Shown here piece by piece: positions 440 through 12,784 of a stretch of 32,811 nt of DNA. The notes beneath the pieces are model-generated. The model saw only the letters and a program-made list of their open reading frames with translations. It had not been told where the DNA came from and did not search any database. Positions within the stretch are counted from its first letter, which is position 1. The number at the start of each line of letters is the position of its first letter. Location of the stretch: IMG/VR virus record IMGVR_UViG_3300025652_000280, positions 1 to 32,811 of that record. One strand, 5' to 3'. A program made the translations under genes and the position numbers. The stretch is from a virus.

Positions 440-751
440 TTGTCTGGTCGAGACTTAAAAGAACACATAAGAATACTAACGGAGTTCAGAAAGATTGACC
501 CGTGGATGCATATACAGACAGTGTATGCTTTTGTAACTATCGCTCAACGTACTTTTGTTAATTCAGAAACGCTGAGGGTTATGGACGTAGGTGAGTTGAT
601 GGATACGTCCAGTGCTAGTGCAAGTAGAAACTTACGAGTGCTGGTAGATCACGATTTAATAAAACTATACGAGAATCCCGATAGACGTATTGAGAAGTAT
701 ATCGAGGTAACAAAGCGAGGCAGAGCCTTAGCAAGGAGGATAAGATTATGA
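440..751 (+). CDS. Winged-helix transcriptional regulator, MarR-like
   Basis: The product is 103 residues. The start is TTG at 440, chosen because a strong AGGAGGG ribosome site lies just upstream at 429-435 and no ATG fits. A helix-turn-helix is visible at about residues 47-72 (VGELMDTSSASASRNLRVLV), followed by DLI and a charged wing containing PDRR, then a C-terminal helix TKRGRALARRIR. This is the layout of MarR/ArsR-type winged helices, which bind palindromic operators as dimers. It sits next to integrase and attP and so probably controls lysogeny genes or integrase. No CI- or Cro-like repressor is visible elsewhere in the window. The stop overlaps the next ATG (ATGA). The family call is good, the target is inferred. 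Confidence 0.75.
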   Translation: MSGRDLKEHIRILTEFRKIDPWMHIQTVYAFVTIAQRTFVNSETLRVMDVGELMDTSSASASRNLRVLVDHDLIKLYENPDRRIEKYIEVTKRGRALARRIRL

Positions 752-840
752 CTAAGATTCTAATAGAGGTACTATCATTTTCAGCAGTGTGTATTACCTT
801 CGGATTCGTAATTAATGCTGTATTGGAGGTTTACGTATGA
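748..840 (+). CDS. 30-residue predicted membrane peptide
   Basis: This short ORF has a textbook ribosome site (AAGGAGGA at 733-740) and overlaps its upstream neighbour (ATGA, 748-751) and downstream neighbour (ATGA, 837-840), so it is translationally locked between regulator and integrase. The product MTKILIEVLS is followed by a hydrophobic run FSAVCITFGFVINAVL, consistent with one membrane-spanning helix. I recognise no family. Placement suggests co-translation with integrase; it could alternatively be a coupling leader whose main role is to pass ribosomes to int. Confidence 0.55.
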   Translation: MTKILIEVLSFSAVCITFGFVINAVLEVYV

Positions 841-1850
841 GTGTTAATCAAAGAGGTAACGGGTGGGAAGCCTATGTTACATACAAAGGGAAGAAGTTTA
901 GGCGAACTCTCTCCACTAAGGAAGATGCCACGGTACTGGAGGCAATGTGGCAAAGAGAGATAGCACAAGGGAATATGCCCACAGCTATGGAAGTTAACAG
1001 AGAGACTGGTAAGGCATCAGGGTGGACACTACGCCATGCGTTTGATCGTTGCCATGAGAACTACTGGGCTAATACAAAGAATGAACGTCAGGTTATGTTT
1101 ATTCAGAGTATTGTCTGTAAGTATTGGGGCGAGAAGTCACCCATCAACAGGATCAGCACTACTACAGTGTTTGACTGGATAAGATGGATGCGAGAGAACC
1201 AAGGTTATGCTCCATCAACTGTTAACAGGCACATATCTTGTCTTAAAAAGTGTTTAGATAATGCAGTGGATGAAGGCGCACTAACTACAGTACCGAAGTT
1301 TAAACGCCAGAGCGAGAAAGGTAGGGAACGTATTGAATACTTCTCTAAGGACGAAGAGAATGCCATTCTAAGCGAGTTTGACAGGTTAGGTGAAGATTAC
1401 CTACGTGACTATGCTATCGTGGCAGTAGACACAGGTATGAGGGCAGGAGAGGTGTTGAAGATTGATGGAGATAATCTTATCAAGCTACAACAAACGAGGT
1501 CTGATGGTTCTCAGATGTATGGTGCTTACATACCAGACAGAAAGAACGGTGAACCACTACTGATGCCTATAACTAAAAGAGTAGAGGAGGTACTACGCAA
1601 ACGTAAGACTTTTAACGATCCATTGTACAAGCACAGACTTGCTTGGGACAGGGTGAGAGATTACTTAGGTCTTACTAATAAGTGCTGGCACACTTGGAGA
1701 CATACGACAGCAACAAGACTAACAGAGAAGGGTTGGGACACTGCTAACATCATGCGTTACATGGGTCATAAAAATATTGCAACCACTCTCAAGTATGCTA
1801 AATGGGATACGTCAACTATGGTTGGTGGGTCTAATTTACTTGAAGATTAG
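837..1850 (+). CDS. int: Tyrosine-family site-specific integrase
   Basis: This 337-residue protein has the full tyrosine recombinase catalytic set: Arg202 in DTGMRAGEVL, Lys236 in DRKNGEP, His285-x-x-Arg288 in HTWRHT, His311 in MGHKNIATT, and nucleophile Tyr320 in LKYAKW. The N-terminal 60 residues (GNGWEAYVTYKGKKFRRTL) resemble an arm-site-binding AP2-type domain, followed by a SAM-like core-binding domain at about 65-160. It would integrate the phage at a host attB using the core at 1924-1961 just downstream. GGAGG at 825-829 sets the start at 837. Integrases placed before the RNA polymerase gene with attP following are known in marine T7-like phages such as P-SSP7 and some pelagiphages. 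Confidence 0.95.
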   Translation: MSVNQRGNGWEAYVTYKGKKFRRTLSTKEDATVLEAMWQREIAQGNMPTAMEVNRETGKASGWTLRHAFDRCHENYWANTKNERQVMFIQSIVCKYWGEKSPINRISTTTVFDWIRWMRENQGYAPSTVNRHISCLKKCLDNAVDEGALTTVPKFKRQSEKGRERIEYFSKDEENAILSEFDRLGEDYLRDYAIVAVDTGMRAGEVLKIDGDNLIKLQQTRSDGSQMYGAYIPDRKNGEPLLMPITKRVEEVLRKRKTFNDPLYKHRLAWDRVRDYLGLTNKCWHTWRHTTATRLTEKGWDTANIMRYMGHKNIATTLKYAKWDTSTMVGGSNLLED

Positions 1851-1923: not shown

Positions 1924-1961
<38 letters not shown>

Positions 1962-2109
1962 GCCCATGAAACCTTATCACGCCACCGTAACAAGATTAGA
2001 ATATATATTGTAATGTATACCACAATCCACATAATCCTTTGCTCCGCTATCGTAGGTAGTTATGAGTAAAGCCACAGTAAAGCTGATACGTGTCCCAAAA
2101 GGAGGCAAC

Positions 2110-2892
2110 ATGGCAACATTGGATGAACAAATAGCGTTGGAGTATCAGATGGTGCAGTCAGGCATCGACAGGTACGACAAACAACTAACGGATTTATTGG
2201 AGAAAGATTTAGGGTCAAAGACAAAGCATGGACGCACGATTATTAAAGGGATACTTGACCCAGTACAGGAACGTATTGAACAACATTGCGCTAAGGATCA
2301 GCGTAGGAATAAGAGCATATCAAAGAACCTACTCAAGAGTATGGATGCAGGGAAGGTAGCCTACTTGTCCTTGATATGTTTAATAGACAGCCTTGCAACT
2401 AACAGTACATTGTTAAAGGTAGCAAGGGGCATTGGTATACAAATTGAAACACAGAAAAGATTAGACACTTGGTTGAGCTTAGACAAGGAAGTAGCAACCA
2501 ACATGATTAGGGAAGCTAACAAGAAGTCTGATAAAGGTTTTGACCACAAGCGTCACGGTCTTGATCACAAGATAAATACTGATGACTTAGATATACCTAC
2601 ATGGTCATCGAATGAGAGAATTAACGTAGGTATAAAACTGATTGATATAATCATAGAGACAACTGGCATTGTTAAACTTGAGAAGAAGATACAAAAGCGT
2701 AAGACGGTTTACCATGTAATACCTACACAAGAAACTCAGGATTGGATTAAAGCCTTTAACGAGACAAACAGTGTAGCATTGCCACGTTATTGTCCATGTA
2801 TTATCGAGCCTAAAGATTGGGAAGGTTTCTGGGGTGGTGGTTACTACTCTGAACATATTAATAAACTACCATTTGTGAGGGTTCACGCATGA
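2110..2892 (+). CDS. T7-like RNA polymerase, N-terminal subunit (split gene)
   Basis: This 260-residue protein corresponds to the N-terminal domain of single-subunit phage RNA polymerases, which binds promoter DNA and forms the RNA exit region. The start at 2110 is preferred over the in-frame ATG at 2062 because AAGGAGG lies just upstream and MATLDEQIALEYQMV matches typical family N-termini. The last 35 residues (EPKDWEGFWGGGYYS...LPFVRVHA) align with T7 PKPWTGITGGGYW...LALVRTHS, ending at about T7 residue 301. The frame then stops at TGA 2890-2892, which overlaps the ATG of the catalytic part. In T7 this is one 883-residue chain. It is either a genuine two-subunit enzyme or a one-base error at the junction. 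Confidence 0.85.
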   Translation: MATLDEQIALEYQMVQSGIDRYDKQLTDLLEKDLGSKTKHGRTIIKGILDPVQERIEQHCAKDQRRNKSISKNLLKSMDAGKVAYLSLICLIDSLATNSTLLKVARGIGIQIETQKRLDTWLSLDKEVATNMIREANKKSDKGFDHKRHGLDHKINTDDLDIPTWSSNERINVGIKLIDIIIETTGIVKLEKKIQKRKTVYHVIPTQETQDWIKAFNETNSVALPRYCPCIIEPKDWEGFWGGGYYSEHINKLPFVRVHA

Positions 2893-4547
2893 GGCAAACA
2901 GCACAAGATTATATTAACGAGCTAGAGAAGTGTGATTTAGGACTAGAGTATCAATGTGTAAATGCTTTGCAGAAAACACCTTGGCGTATCAATGAGTTTG
3001 TTGTCGATACGTTAAGACTATGTTGGGACAGTGGACAGGAATGGGAAGGTTTACCACCAAGGGACAACTTATCTTTACCTAAGTACCCGTTTAGTAAAGA
3101 GCCTAAGTATCTCAACGAGGAAGAGACACTAAAGTTTAAGATATTCAAATCAGAACGTAACAAGATACACAGCTACAACAATAAGTCTATGTCCAAACGG
3201 ATACAGATAGAAAGAACCATCCAGCTTGCAGAGCAGTATAAGGATATAGAGAAGCTCTGGTATGTGTGGCAGTTAGATTTCAGGGGACGTAAGTATCCTG
3301 TAGAGTCTTTCTTGTCTCCACAGAATGCTGATTACAGTAAAGCACTATTAGAGTTTGCTAACCCAGCTACTATCACGAATGACGAAGAAGCTAAGTGGCT
3401 GGCAATACATGGTGCTAATGTATTTGGAGTAGATAAAGTAAGTTTAGAAGATCGAGAGATGTGGGCGTACATGAACGTAGAGAACGCTGTCGGTGTTTAC
3501 AACGACCCTTTAACTAACAAATGGTGGCAGGAAGCAGACAAACCTTGGCAAGCACTTGCATGGTGTTATGAGTGGGCGTTATACAACAACGCTAGACAGT
3601 TTGGTGAGCATTTCGAGACAAGGCTACCCTGTGCTAGTGATGGATCGTGTAACGGCTTACAGCACCTGTCAGCTATGCTCAGGGATGAGGAGGGTGGTAG
3701 AGCAGTTAACTTACTACCAAGTGCAACACCTCAAGACATTTATACGGACGTAGCAAAGAGAACAACGGAATTGTTACAACAAGAGAACACAGTGTTAGCA
3801 ACGGAATTGCTTAACATTGGAGTGTGTAGAAAGATATGTAAGAGACCTGTGATGATTGTACCCTACTCAGGGACACAACACAGTTGTAGAGACTACATCC
3901 TTGAAGCACTTGAAGATAAATGCAAGGGTAAAAATCCTTGGGGAGATGATTTCTGGAAGGCGGCAACATACTTAGCTAAGTTTGTATGGCAAGCCATCAA
4001 CGAGGTTATTATCTCAGCGCATACGGTAATGGACTACATTAAAAGTATTGCAAAGTTATACAGCAAACAGGATAAACCGTTTGAGTGGGTTACACCTACA
4101 GGGCTGTTAGTAAGACAGGCTTATAGCAACACAAAGAAACTACGCATTGATACACACCTGTGTGGTTCTACAGTGAAGCTGAATTACAGAAAGCCTATAG
4201 AGAACTCCATTGACTCACGTAAGAGTGTGTCAGGTAGCTCTCCAAACTTCACTCACTCACTTGATGCCGCAGCTCTTACGCTTACGGTTGATAAATGTTT
4301 GAAGGAAGGGATTACAGACTTTGCTATGGTACATGACAGTTATGGCACACACAGTCCCAACATGGTGAAACTTAACGATAAGTTAAGAGAAGCTTTTGTT
4401 GAGATGTATAGAGACAATGATGTCTTGTACAATCTCTACGCTTACGCAGTAACATCGCTGAAGGAGGGAACAGAAATACCTGAACCCCCAGCAAGAGGTT
4501 GTTTGAACATTGAGGAGGTACTGAATAGTGATTACTTTTTTGCGTGA
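2889..4547 (+). CDS. T7-like RNA polymerase, catalytic subunit (split gene)
   Basis: This 552-residue protein covers T7 RNA polymerase from about residue 302 to the C-terminus. Conserved landmarks are Arg132/Arg134 in DFRGRKYPV, Asp251 in SDGSCNGLQHLSAM (T7 Asp537), Lys318 and Tyr326 in CKRPVMIVPYSG (T7 Lys631, Tyr639), Asp483 in VHDSYGT (T7 Asp812), and a C-terminal FFA like the T7 FAFA foot. The specificity-loop region (about 425-455) differs from T7, as expected for a different promoter. The start ATG overlaps the upstream stop, with GAGGG at 2877-2881 seven bases before it. It lacks the N-terminal domain, which the preceding gene supplies. It should transcribe the replication and virion genes from the 19-base repeats. 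Confidence 0.9.
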   Translation: MRQTAQDYINELEKCDLGLEYQCVNALQKTPWRINEFVVDTLRLCWDSGQEWEGLPPRDNLSLPKYPFSKEPKYLNEEETLKFKIFKSERNKIHSYNNKSMSKRIQIERTIQLAEQYKDIEKLWYVWQLDFRGRKYPVESFLSPQNADYSKALLEFANPATITNDEEAKWLAIHGANVFGVDKVSLEDREMWAYMNVENAVGVYNDPLTNKWWQEADKPWQALAWCYEWALYNNARQFGEHFETRLPCASDGSCNGLQHLSAMLRDEEGGRAVNLLPSATPQDIYTDVAKRTTELLQQENTVLATELLNIGVCRKICKRPVMIVPYSGTQHSCRDYILEALEDKCKGKNPWGDDFWKAATYLAKFVWQAINEVIISAHTVMDYIKSIAKLYSKQDKPFEWVTPTGLLVRQAYSNTKKLRIDTHLCGSTVKLNYRKPIENSIDSRKSVSGSSPNFTHSLDAAALTLTVDKCLKEGITDFAMVHDSYGTHSPNMVKLNDKLREAFVEMYRDNDVLYNLYAYAVTSLKEGTEIPEPPARGCLNIEEVLNSDYFFA

Positions 4548-4549
4548 TT

Positions 4550-4568
4550 CTCTATTCCCCCCCTATAG
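4550..4568 (+). promoter_or_regulatory. Candidate phage RNA polymerase promoter, copy 1
   Basis: CTCTATTCCCCCCCTATAG occurs here and, identically, at 12759-12777, and I see no other copy in the window. Both copies lie in gaps at functional borders, here between the RNA polymerase and replication genes. The TATAG end matches the -4 to +1 part of T7, SP6 and K11 promoters, so transcription would start at G4568. That the phage polymerase recognises it is inference. Confidence 0.8.
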
Positions 4569-4608: not shown

Positions 4609-5226
4609 ATGGCGAAGAACATTTTAGTATTAGAAGGGAAAGCAGCTTGGGCAAAGGTATTTGAACCTGATACAAAGTTCAACCCTCTGGGTGACTACAG
4701 TATTAATTTACAGATGCCCGAAGCAGATGCCGCAACTATGTGTGAGAAATTAGAAGGACTGATTCAAGAGACTTTTAAGAAAGCAGTAAAAGAAAAACCA
4801 CCTCTTAAGAACTCTCTGACCACACAAGATGTTATGTCAGTAGTATATGACAGAGAGACGGGAGACCCTACAGGAGATGTAGAGTTTAAATTTAAACTGA
4901 AAGCTAAAGTCCAGAAAAGAGATGGTAGTTGGTATGAGCAAGAGCCAGCAGTGCTTGATGCTAAGAAAACACCACTCACAGGTGATACACTGATTGGTAA
5001 TGGTTCAAAGGTTAAGGTAGCATTCGAGCCTATCCCTTACGTCATGCAATCAACCAAGAAGGTGGGTGTGTCTCTACGACTGAAAGCAGTACAGGTAATA
5101 GATTTAGTTGAGTATGGTAACTCAGCTTCAAGTGTGTTCGATGAAGAAGACGGCTTCATAGCCCCCTCCGCTAATGCCGAAACTTCATCAACAACCGAGG
5201 TCTTTGCAGATGCCGCTGACTTCTAG
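4609..5226 (+). CDS. Single-stranded DNA-binding protein (T7 gp2.5-like)
   Basis: The product is 205 residues, close to T7 gp2.5 (232). It is the first gene after the candidate phage promoter and has the family position between RNA polymerase and endonuclease I. The C-terminus is acidic and ends in phenylalanine (VFADAADF), matching the acidic tail with terminal Phe that gp2.5 uses to contact DNA polymerase and helicase. The body has a beta-rich pattern with KFNPLGDYSINLQMP and KVKVAFEPIPYVMQ compatible with an OB fold. It would coat single strands during replication and recombination. The last 17 bases overlap the endonuclease gene. The ribosome site is weak (AGGA at 4597-4600). Confidence 0.85.
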   Translation: MAKNILVLEGKAAWAKVFEPDTKFNPLGDYSINLQMPEADAATMCEKLEGLIQETFKKAVKEKPPLKNSLTTQDVMSVVYDRETGDPTGDVEFKFKLKAKVQKRDGSWYEQEPAVLDAKKTPLTGDTLIGNGSKVKVAFEPIPYVMQSTKKVGVSLRLKAVQVIDLVEYGNSASSVFDEEDGFIAPSANAETSSTTEVFADAADF

Positions 5227-5581
5227 ATCGACCCTAGAAGAACGTGTGCAAGCAGACCTCGACTACCGTGGGATAGCTTATGAGTATGAACCTTGTAAGC
5301 TACCCTACACGGTAACTAGAAACTACATACCTGATCTTAGGATTGGAGATATATATGTCGAGGTTAAGGGATACTTCCGTGCAGAAGCACAGCGCAAGAT
5401 GCGTAACATGAAGGAACAACACCCAGAGCTAGACATACGATTCTTATTTCAACGAAACAACAGCCCAGTACAAGGAGCAAAGAAACGCAAGGACGGTTCT
5501 AAGATGACTTGTGCAGAGTGGGCAGAGAAACATAACTTCACCTACGCAGAGGGGATGATCCCTGATGATTGGTTTAACTAG
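5210..5581 (+). CDS. Endonuclease I, Holliday junction resolvase (T7 gp3-like)
   Basis: The 123-residue product has the PD-(D/E)XK active site of T7 endonuclease I: Asp42 in YIPDLRIG, then Glu51 and Lys53 in VEVKGYF, followed by EQHPELDIRFLF, which is nearly the same in T7 (T7 residues Asp55, Glu65, Lys67). The enzyme cuts branched DNA and helps break down host DNA. Start 5210 is chosen over the upstream in-frame ATG at 5174 because GAGG sits at 5197-5200 and the upstream extension is only the ssDNA-binding gene read in another frame. It overlaps that gene by 17 bases. Confidence 0.9.
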   Translation: MPLTSRSTLEERVQADLDYRGIAYEYEPCKLPYTVTRNYIPDLRIGDIYVEVKGYFRAEAQRKMRNMKEQHPELDIRFLFQRNNSPVQGAKKRKDGSKMTCAEWAEKHNFTYAEGMIPDDWFN

Positions 5582-5590
5582 GAGATAGTG

Positions 5591-7159
5591 ATGGAAAATC
5601 AGGAGAGTGAATTTGTAATGCACACTCCTTGTAGTAAGTGTGGATCATCAGATGCAAACAGCTTGTACTCTGATGGTCACACCTACTGCTTTAATTGTAA
5701 ACACTATGGGCAATCCCAAGAGGAGGTCAGATTGGTAGAGAACGCAGTAAAAGATACGATATTCAAAACAGGGTCTTATCAACCGTTGGTTAAAAGAAAC
5801 CTATCGGAAAAGACCACTAGGTTTTGGGATTATCAGGTAGCAGAAGGAATGCACATAGCAAACTTCAAGGATGCTGATGGCAACACAGTAGCACAGAAGC
5901 TACGATATCCTGATAAAACTTTTGCTGTAGTAGGTGACTTAAAGAAAGCTGTGTTGTTTGGACAGAACCTGTGGCGAGATGGTGGTAAGAGTTGTGTCGT
6001 TGTGGAGGGTGAGCTAGATGCTCTCTCCATGTCACAAGCCTTTGATAACAAGTGGGCAGTAGTATCCATCAAGACAGGAGCGGCAGGAGCTAAGAAGGAC
6101 ATACAGAAAGCTATAGAGTGGTTAGAGAAGTTTGACTCAGTAGTCTTTATGTTCGATCAGGATGATGTGGGTAAGGCGGCAGCATTAGAGTGTGCAGGTA
6201 TGTTGTCTCCACGTAAAGCTAAGATTGCTAAACTCCCACTCAAGGATGCGAGTGAGATGATACAGGCAGGGAGACAGTCAGAACTTATTGATGCGTTTTG
6301 GGGGGCAAAAGAGTTTGCACCTGATGGCATCATCAACGGTGAAGATTTGTGGGAAGCAGTATCAACAGAGAAGGAAGTACACACAGTACCTTATCCTTAT
6401 CAAGGACTTAACAACAAGATAGGCGGTTGCCGCTTAGGTGAAATTGTAACTGTAACGGCTGGTTCAGGTTTAGGTAAGTCACAGCTCACAAGAGAGTTTG
6501 CTTACCACCTTCTTAATGAAGGAGCTACGATAGGATATGTAGCACTCGAAGAATCTAGCAAACGTACAGCACAGGGACTTATGTCCTTACACCTAGGTAA
6601 GCCAGTACATCTTGAAGAAGTCCCGACAGAAGAGCTTAGAGAAGCCTTTGATGCGACTCTTGGTACAGGGCGTGTGTTTATGTATGACCATTGGGGATCG
6701 ACAGAGAGTGACAACCTCCTCGCTAAGATCAGATACCTAGCAAGAGGGTGTGGTTGCCAGTACATTATACTGGATCACATTAGTATTGTTGTGTCAGGTA
6801 TCGAAGGCGGAGATGAGAGACGAATCATTGATAACATGATGACCAACTTGCGGTCACTAACCGAAGAATTAAATATCGGATTGATTGTTGTATCTCATTT
6901 ACGTAGACCAAGTGGTGATAAAGGACACGAAGAAGGGCAAGTAACATCGCTCTCACAGCTTCGAGGTTCAGCAGCTATCGCTCAACTAAGTGACATAGTA
7001 ATAGGCTTAGAACGTAACCAGCAGGACGCTGAGACTTCTAATGTAACAACCGTCCGTATCTTAAAGAACAGATGGTCAGGTGATACAGGTGTAGCAGGAC
7101 AGCTTCACTACTCCACCACAACAGGTCGTATGTCAGAGGAATTTGATGTACCTTTTTAA
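5591..7159 (+). CDS. DNA primase/helicase (T7 gp4-like)
   Basis: This is a 522-residue bifunctional replication protein. An N-terminal zinc motif is formed by Cys14, Cys17, Cys33 and Cys36 (CSKCG...CFNC). A TOPRIM primase domain follows with VVVEGELDALSM and VFMFDQDDVGKAA. The C-terminal RecA-type helicase has Walker A GSGLGKSQL, Walker B YIILDHIS, and the H4 region SQLRGSAAIAQLSDIVIGLE. It would unwind DNA 5' to 3' as a ring and lay down RNA primers. ATG 5591 is preferred over GTG 5588 because AGGAG at 5580-5584 is then 6 bases away. Whether a short form without the zinc domain is made, as in T7, cannot be seen. Confidence 0.95.
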   Translation: MENQESEFVMHTPCSKCGSSDANSLYSDGHTYCFNCKHYGQSQEEVRLVENAVKDTIFKTGSYQPLVKRNLSEKTTRFWDYQVAEGMHIANFKDADGNTVAQKLRYPDKTFAVVGDLKKAVLFGQNLWRDGGKSCVVVEGELDALSMSQAFDNKWAVVSIKTGAAGAKKDIQKAIEWLEKFDSVVFMFDQDDVGKAAALECAGMLSPRKAKIAKLPLKDASEMIQAGRQSELIDAFWGAKEFAPDGIINGEDLWEAVSTEKEVHTVPYPYQGLNNKIGGCRLGEIVTVTAGSGLGKSQLTREFAYHLLNEGATIGYVALEESSKRTAQGLMSLHLGKPVHLEEVPTEELREAFDATLGTGRVFMYDHWGSTESDNLLAKIRYLARGCGCQYIILDHISIVVSGIEGGDERRIIDNMMTNLRSLTEELNIGLIVVSHLRRPSGDKGHEEGQVTSLSQLRGSAAIAQLSDIVIGLERNQQDAETSNVTTVRILKNRWSGDTGVAGQLHYSTTTGRMSEEFDVPF

Positions 7160-12703: not shown

Positions 12704-12784
12704 GTGCCTCCACATCATCGCCAACGTCTGGCTGCATCTACCGTCATAACTGGGCTGGCTCTATTCCCCCCCTATAGAGAGTAA
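12704..12784 (+). CDS. Possible 26-residue protein with GTG start
   Basis: In the gap after RNR, GTG 12704 has a good ribosome site (GGAGG at 12692-12696, 7 bases before). It opens a frame to TAA 12782-12784: a basic start PPHHRQRLAAS followed by hydrophobic TVITGLALFPP. The candidate promoter at 12759-12777 lies inside its 3' end, so it would be made only from upstream transcripts. I recall no family. A short hydrophobic peptide with such a ribosome site is plausible, but chance cannot be excluded. Confidence 0.4.
   Translation: MPPHHRQRLAASTVITGLALFPPYRE
12759..12777 (+). promoter_or_regulatory. Candidate phage RNA polymerase promoter, copy 2
   Basis: This is the second exact copy of the 19-base CTCTATTCCCCCCCTATAG, placed between RNR and the head gene block, with G12777 as the expected first transcribed base. 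From here a transcript would read through the portal, scaffold and capsid genes and on to the tail. The match with copy 1 ends directly after TATAG, as expected if only the promoter is conserved. Confidence 0.8.

Follow-up and report, generated by a model that had tools for sequence, protein, structure and literature searches.

A T7-type RNA polymerase encoded by two overlapping genes in a clade of marine phages

Introduction

The T7-type RNA polymerase of a marine virus infecting bacteria is encoded by two overlapping open reading frames, and the occurrence of the same break in diverged relatives confirms that this arrangement is genuine and no sequencing error. T7 RNA polymerase (T7 RNAP) is the textbook example of a polymerase in one chain, and to pass from initiation to elongation it relies on its N-terminal domain turning relative to the catalytic body; the refolded N-terminal domain then remains and aids elongation. 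The polymerase described here is cut at the border between these two parts, into an N chain and a C chain. On the evidence set out below, the two very probably form a heterodimeric T7-type polymerase by way of coupled translation, with the N chain serving promoter binding and carrying the hinge and the C chain serving catalysis. Throughout the text, "the window" is the whole stretch of DNA that was analysed, a 32,811-base IMG/VR virus record with a G+C content of 41.7%; residues are numbered within each chain, and positions labelled T7 refer to T7 RNAP.

Architecture of the split polymerase

The initial annotation described a T7-type polymerase encoded by two overlapping cistrons and broken near T7 residue 301, at the border between the N-terminal domain and the catalytic body, and this description holds. 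Pfam finds RPOL_N in the N chain (E 1.3e-15) and RNA_pol in the C chain (E 1.7e-105), and profiles of the clade's N and C chains, searched against PDB profiles, align to the ranges of T7 RNAP given in Table 1 (E 3.9e-32 and 7.1e-150, respectively), so that the chains meet at T7 297-301. The claim that the family is covered without loss is borne out by PHROG 414 (816 positions), of which the N chain covers 2-267 and the C chain 266-816; as the two together cover it throughout, nothing is lost at the join. The four catalytic residues of the C chain were correctly read as retained: they are invariant throughout an alignment of 28 C chains that takes in fused relatives, and we take their T7 counterparts to be D537, K631, Y639 and D812. 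The domains, catalytic residues and predicted fold of the window's enzyme are thus those of the single-subunit (T7-like) family, and at the gene level it departs from the family's single polypeptide, with two ORFs in all 130 of the clade records that reach N. A split intein was considered and rejected, since the chain ends carry no added domain and N and C span the family without a gap.

At the join, the N chain ends in VRVHA and the C chain begins with MRQTA. The ATGA overlap and the GAGGG that had been noted 7 bases before the second ATG are both in place, the latter at 2877-2881. The N frame is open up to the TGA at 2890-2892 and the longest ORF there begins at 2062; we prefer the ATG at 2110 because AAAGGAGG (2098-2105) lies shortly ahead of it, because an in-frame stop precedes this position in relatives L024 and L025, and because similarity to the N chain starts at this position in L017-L022.

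Table 1. Features of the window around the split polymerase, with positions counted from its first base
Feature	Position	Strand	Remarks
MarR-like regulator	440-751		Pfam match under cut-off
Tyrosine integrase	837-1850		Pfam
tRNA-Phe, 5' half	1924-1961		between integrase and N gene
Ribosome-binding site	2098..2109	+	AAAGGAGGCAAC, ahead of N-chain ATG 2110
N chain, 260 aa	2110..2892	+	promoter-binding domain, hinge proline P225, conserved 35-residue tail; T7 RNAP 32-300
Shine-Dalgarno-like site for C chain	2875..2881	+	GTGAGGG, within N coding sequence
Start/stop overlap of both cistrons	2889..2892	+	ATGA
C chain, 552 aa	2889..4547	+	catalytic body with D251, K318, Y326, D483; T7 RNAP 298-883
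Putative phage promoter, copy 1	4550..4568	+	CTCTATTCCCCCCCTATAG, exact 19-base repeat, ends CTATAG
T7-type ssDNA-binding protein	4609-5226		Pfam
Putative phage promoter, copy 2	12759..12777	+	CTCTATTCCCCCCCTATAG, second exact copy

The predicted model of the C chain (pLDDT 91.2) resembles 3e2e with a TM score of 0.87, and that of the N chain (pLDDT 81.9) resembles 1h38 with a TM score of 0.76. When the N model is compared with the PDB, elongation complexes take ranks 1-18 and initiation-state structures rank lower. Residues 227-235 and 237-260 of the N chain, folded alone, are predicted with low confidence, and this tail is well conserved, with the motifs PRYxPCIIxPKDW and GGGY. Across 24 sequences 25 columns of the N chain are invariant, among them the hinge proline P225, which is the first proline of the tail and aligns with the hinge proline P266 of T7 (counted on the profile alignment). 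PMC3961267 draws the C-linker of T7 RNAP as residues 251-296 and gives the hinge as 258-266, so that a cut at T7 297-301 lies where the C-linker ends and leaves the hinge in the N chain. We infer that the N tail docks on the C chain, and its low confidence in isolation fits such a docking tail, short of proof.

The polymerase genes lie between the integrase and single-stranded DNA-binding protein (SSB) genes. Downstream of the latter we place an endonuclease I-like gene, a primase-helicase, a DNA polymerase and structural genes, presumed from their position and from what is typical of the family, the endonuclease I-like ORF by its position. HTVC019P-type pelagiphages share the window's gene order of regulator, integrase, polymerase and SSB; HTVC019P and Gjalp differ in having a lysozyme gene between the endonuclease I-like ORF and the primase, for which the window has no room at 5174-5600. 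The tRNA-Phe half upstream of the N gene is likely the attachment site and also occurs in near relatives (33 locus matches, with the window and repeat fetches counted). Its 37 bases are identical to tRNA-Phe in 24 genome contigs, 21 of them from methanotrophs by title; Crenothrix and the other genera belong to the Methylococcales. This match hints at the type of host, short of proof. A scan of genome contigs for prophage hosts with a C-chain alignment gave 43 pattern matches, none encoding a relative.

Conservation of the break

Relatives were collected in first scans with C and N queries (57 and 24 loci) and in two further scans, from which we used the best 80 of 573 matches (viral contigs, one alignment) and 80 of 255 (another alignment), so that the survey is a non-exhaustive one biased to near relatives. 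We counted as members of the window's clade the records with a C chain sharing 49.5% identity or more with that of the window across at least 100 residues, with the window itself and repeat fetches included. Among the matches listed, 143 locus records belong to this clade: 130 are split, none is fused and 13 end before N, having at most 253 bases ahead of C and no recognisable N. The 130 split records represent 76 distinct junctions (distinctness being judged by 200 bases), although the contigs are related and locus counts are not independent events. Sixty of the 76 are four-base overlaps, with ATG as the start in 58, GTG in one and TTG in one (L137, which also has an ATG, at TGATG); 12 are TAATG or TGATG, and four are of other kinds (L150, L041, L121 and L156). 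In L015, for example, identity to the window is 67% in N and 83% in C.

In L150, N and C share one frame and are divided by a stop, the C start lying 6 bases past the first base of the stop. In L121 they are separated by 975 bases with five small ORFs, and in HTVC025P, of another clade, by two annotated ORFs, which means that N and C can exist as fully separate genes. Of the five small ORFs at 2025-3000 in L121, one matches PHROG 5913 and a few weaker families, of unknown function, and the other four match nothing. L041 has an odd 22-base junction and the C frame of L156 is broken; each is perhaps a contig error or a decaying gene.

Selection on the two chains and on the second start

Both chains are, by their substitution ratios, under purifying selection: across 66 pairs from 31 sequences with a complete N, kept where dS was 0.1-1.5 for C and above 0.05 for N, dN/dS has a median of 0.047 in N and 0.069 in C. 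Of the two chains, N evolves the faster, with a median dN ratio of 1.45. Codon usage at the join bears on the start of the C chain. Among 46 sequences, made up of the window and 45 loci, the valine before the arginine of the join is encoded by GTG in 39 of 39 cases, against a background of 364 of 2121, and arginine codons at the join are AGG in 43 of 47, against 347 of 1554; the codons of the neighbouring leucine, proline, phenylalanine and next valine vary in the same sequences. These neighbours serve as a control, given that counts from related sequences are not independent trials. Together the two nearly fixed codons spell GTGAGG, a Shine-Dalgarno-like motif, which on this codon evidence is kept ahead of the C start by synonymous choice, that is, selected. 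Grouped by reading frame, a mere proxy for clade, such a motif precedes the C start at 66 of the 71 split junctions in the -1 frame and at 53 of the 63 in other frames (5 and 10, respectively, lack it), and it occurs at the matching place in 1 of 25 fused genes.

Two split clades and almost one cut site

All fetched loci together (253, repeats included) comprise 209 split, 27 fused and 17 without N. For a tree of the C domain we took 229 domains, removed 8 lacking the N side and clustered the remaining 221 at 80% identity into 63 rows. The window's clade forms 24 of these rows, all split, with support of 100/100; its sister group (95/89) consists of four fused rows (L162, L163, L165 and L168) that share about 43-44% identity with the window. 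The polymerases of Fussvirus, Stopavirus, HTVC025P and Chosvirus-like phages fall in a second clade, whose 18 rows are all split save HTVC011P; the fused L228 and L231 lie just outside it. The split label changes three times on this tree, compared with 18.4 times when labels are shuffled on the same tree; a tree of the N domain (57 rows, built by a quick method) likewise has three changes, two of them forced by its starred branches. An AU test rejects a single clade uniting every split row (p-AU 0.000225, for a group named post hoc with the tree already seen). The simplest reading of the three changes is two gains and one loss: from these trees, the split seems to have evolved at least twice at almost the same spot, the window's clade being apparently separate. 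One ancient split followed by several re-fusions is a less likely history.

By its annotation, HTVC011P (L090) is the one fused exception within the second split clade, and the split may therefore be dispensable in places. It clusters at 80% identity or above with 17 loci, all 17 split, and differs at the junction from eight aligned near relatives by one base, so that either a re-fusion or an error in the HTVC011P record would account for it.

Proposed mechanism and alternatives

We propose that the host polymerase makes one early two-cistron transcript; transcription by the host is presumed from the position of both genes ahead of the first putative phage promoter. Ribosomes finishing N at the ATGA would restart on C, aided by GTGAGG, and such coupled translation would yield similar amounts of the two chains; the tightness of the overlap argues for this rather than for the separate control or limiting N suggested in the initial annotation. 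The N chain would contribute the promoter-binding domain, the hinge proline and the 35-residue tail that in T7 joins the catalytic body, and the C chain the complete catalytic body; the two would assemble non-covalently, and the dimer would read the phage's 19-base promoters. The 19-base repeat, present in two exact copies where none is expected by chance, is probably the promoter of this polymerase, and its CTATAG ending is also found in promoters after T7 gene 1. The exact 14-base core occurs in 7 of the 253 loci, which are the window and two other contigs only. Diverged, similar-looking elements were seen by eye, unscored, after the C gene of many clade members.

A sequencing or assembly error in an ordinary one-gene polymerase has next to no probability. 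A one-base slip could mimic a split in one contig, and HTVC011P shows fused and split neighbours one base apart; the same break, however, recurs, at identities as low as 50%, in 76 distinct junctions and in contigs from many metagenomes, the codon choice is conserved for the second start, and the N and C genes lie apart in L121 and HTVC025P. The initial annotation had suggested looking for the break in related genomes and had named one missing A as a possible cause; with dozens of diverged contigs sharing the break, a missing base in the window is no explanation. We also consider improbable a programmed -1 frameshift that would join the two parts into one full-length polymerase, be it as sole product or alongside the separate chains. 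The frames are -1-related in most of the clade, and most loci have a shared open zone of 4 to 82 bases, but of 132 split loci with this frame relation (repeats included), the 131 open to examination all lack an X XXY YYZ heptamer in that zone, the in-frame stop of L150 and the gap of L121 speak against it, and the N/C frames differ in the other split clade. It is very improbable that N is a relic in decay beside a C chain that acts alone: N diverges faster than C, as both L015 and the median dN ratio illustrate, yet its dN/dS is low and its invariant columns include the hinge proline.

A further alternative is that N acts as a dissociable initiation factor, sigma-like, which assists the C chain at promoters and then leaves or is exchanged during elongation. 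The promoter-binding domain does sit in N, and the cut ends the C-linker, a segment that T7 RNAP reshapes as it passes from initiation to elongation (PMC3961267). We nevertheless regard this as unlikely, since the N model is closest to elongation-complex structures, the N tail is strongly conserved, translation appears coupled and unsystematic inspection showed no second N gene. The refolded N-terminal domain of T7 RNAP likewise stays through elongation. A broader conjecture holds that marine T7-like phages evolved the cut behind the C-linker two or more times independently for an advantage closed to a single chain, namely a promoter-binding subunit whose supply, withholding or exchange is separate from the catalytic core. 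It is doubtful; if true, it would mean that a sigma-like factor evolved inside the single-subunit polymerase family. Natural enzymes cut at this border, apparently more than once, offer a direct test of the role of the covalent link in the initiation-elongation change, and natural split polymerases are ready-made parts for synthetic biology.

Comparison with known two-part polymerases

Two chains within the single-subunit family have a natural precedent in RNA polymerase II of phage N4 (RNAP1 and RNAP2; PMC5418858). The parallel drawn to it by the initial annotation stands as regards a natural two-chain member of the family and fails as regards the cut: the N4 chains are parted at T7 452-456, within the catalytic body, and their genes do not overlap, unlike the window's; N4 belongs to the Schitoviridae. 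Engineered split T7 RNAP is active from co-expressed fragments according to PMC4299498, whose text names cuts at 67, 179 and 601 and which reports five seams; these splits are artificial, and one of the five may lie near T7 300.

Closer to the window are HTVC019P-group III pelagiphages, whose two-part T7-type polymerase was published as an observation without a mechanism (Chen et al., PMC6811365), so that the initial annotation, which knew of no established two-gene polymerase in T7-like phages, is to be amended here. GenBank also annotates two-gene polymerases in Gjalp, Eyrgjafa, S30-C28, HTVC041P, HTVC025P and Deep1-GF2-KM23-C739. Among the matches listed in searches of an open-access library there was no other report of a two-part T7-type polymerase; the relevant passages of PMC10386132 and PMC8472413 mention no split T7-type polymerase except N4 RNA polymerase II. 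HTVC019P-group III and its kin, among which we count Fussvirus, Stopavirus HTVC041P, HTVC025P, uv-Fonsiphage-EPL (PMC6811365) and Chosvirus, likewise have two genes, cut at about T7 290-300 (their ragged chain ends align anywhere across T7 255-317), and, where seen, an integrase gene upstream as in the window. They differ from the window's clade in their position on the tree, in having mostly other frames and longer overlaps or small gaps in place of ATGA, in N chains of 298-329 aa (five translated) against 260 aa, and in including one fused member where the window's clade has none. The window's polymerase is thus not wholly new, its type being in print and in GenBank, and its clade is apparently a second, independent instance.
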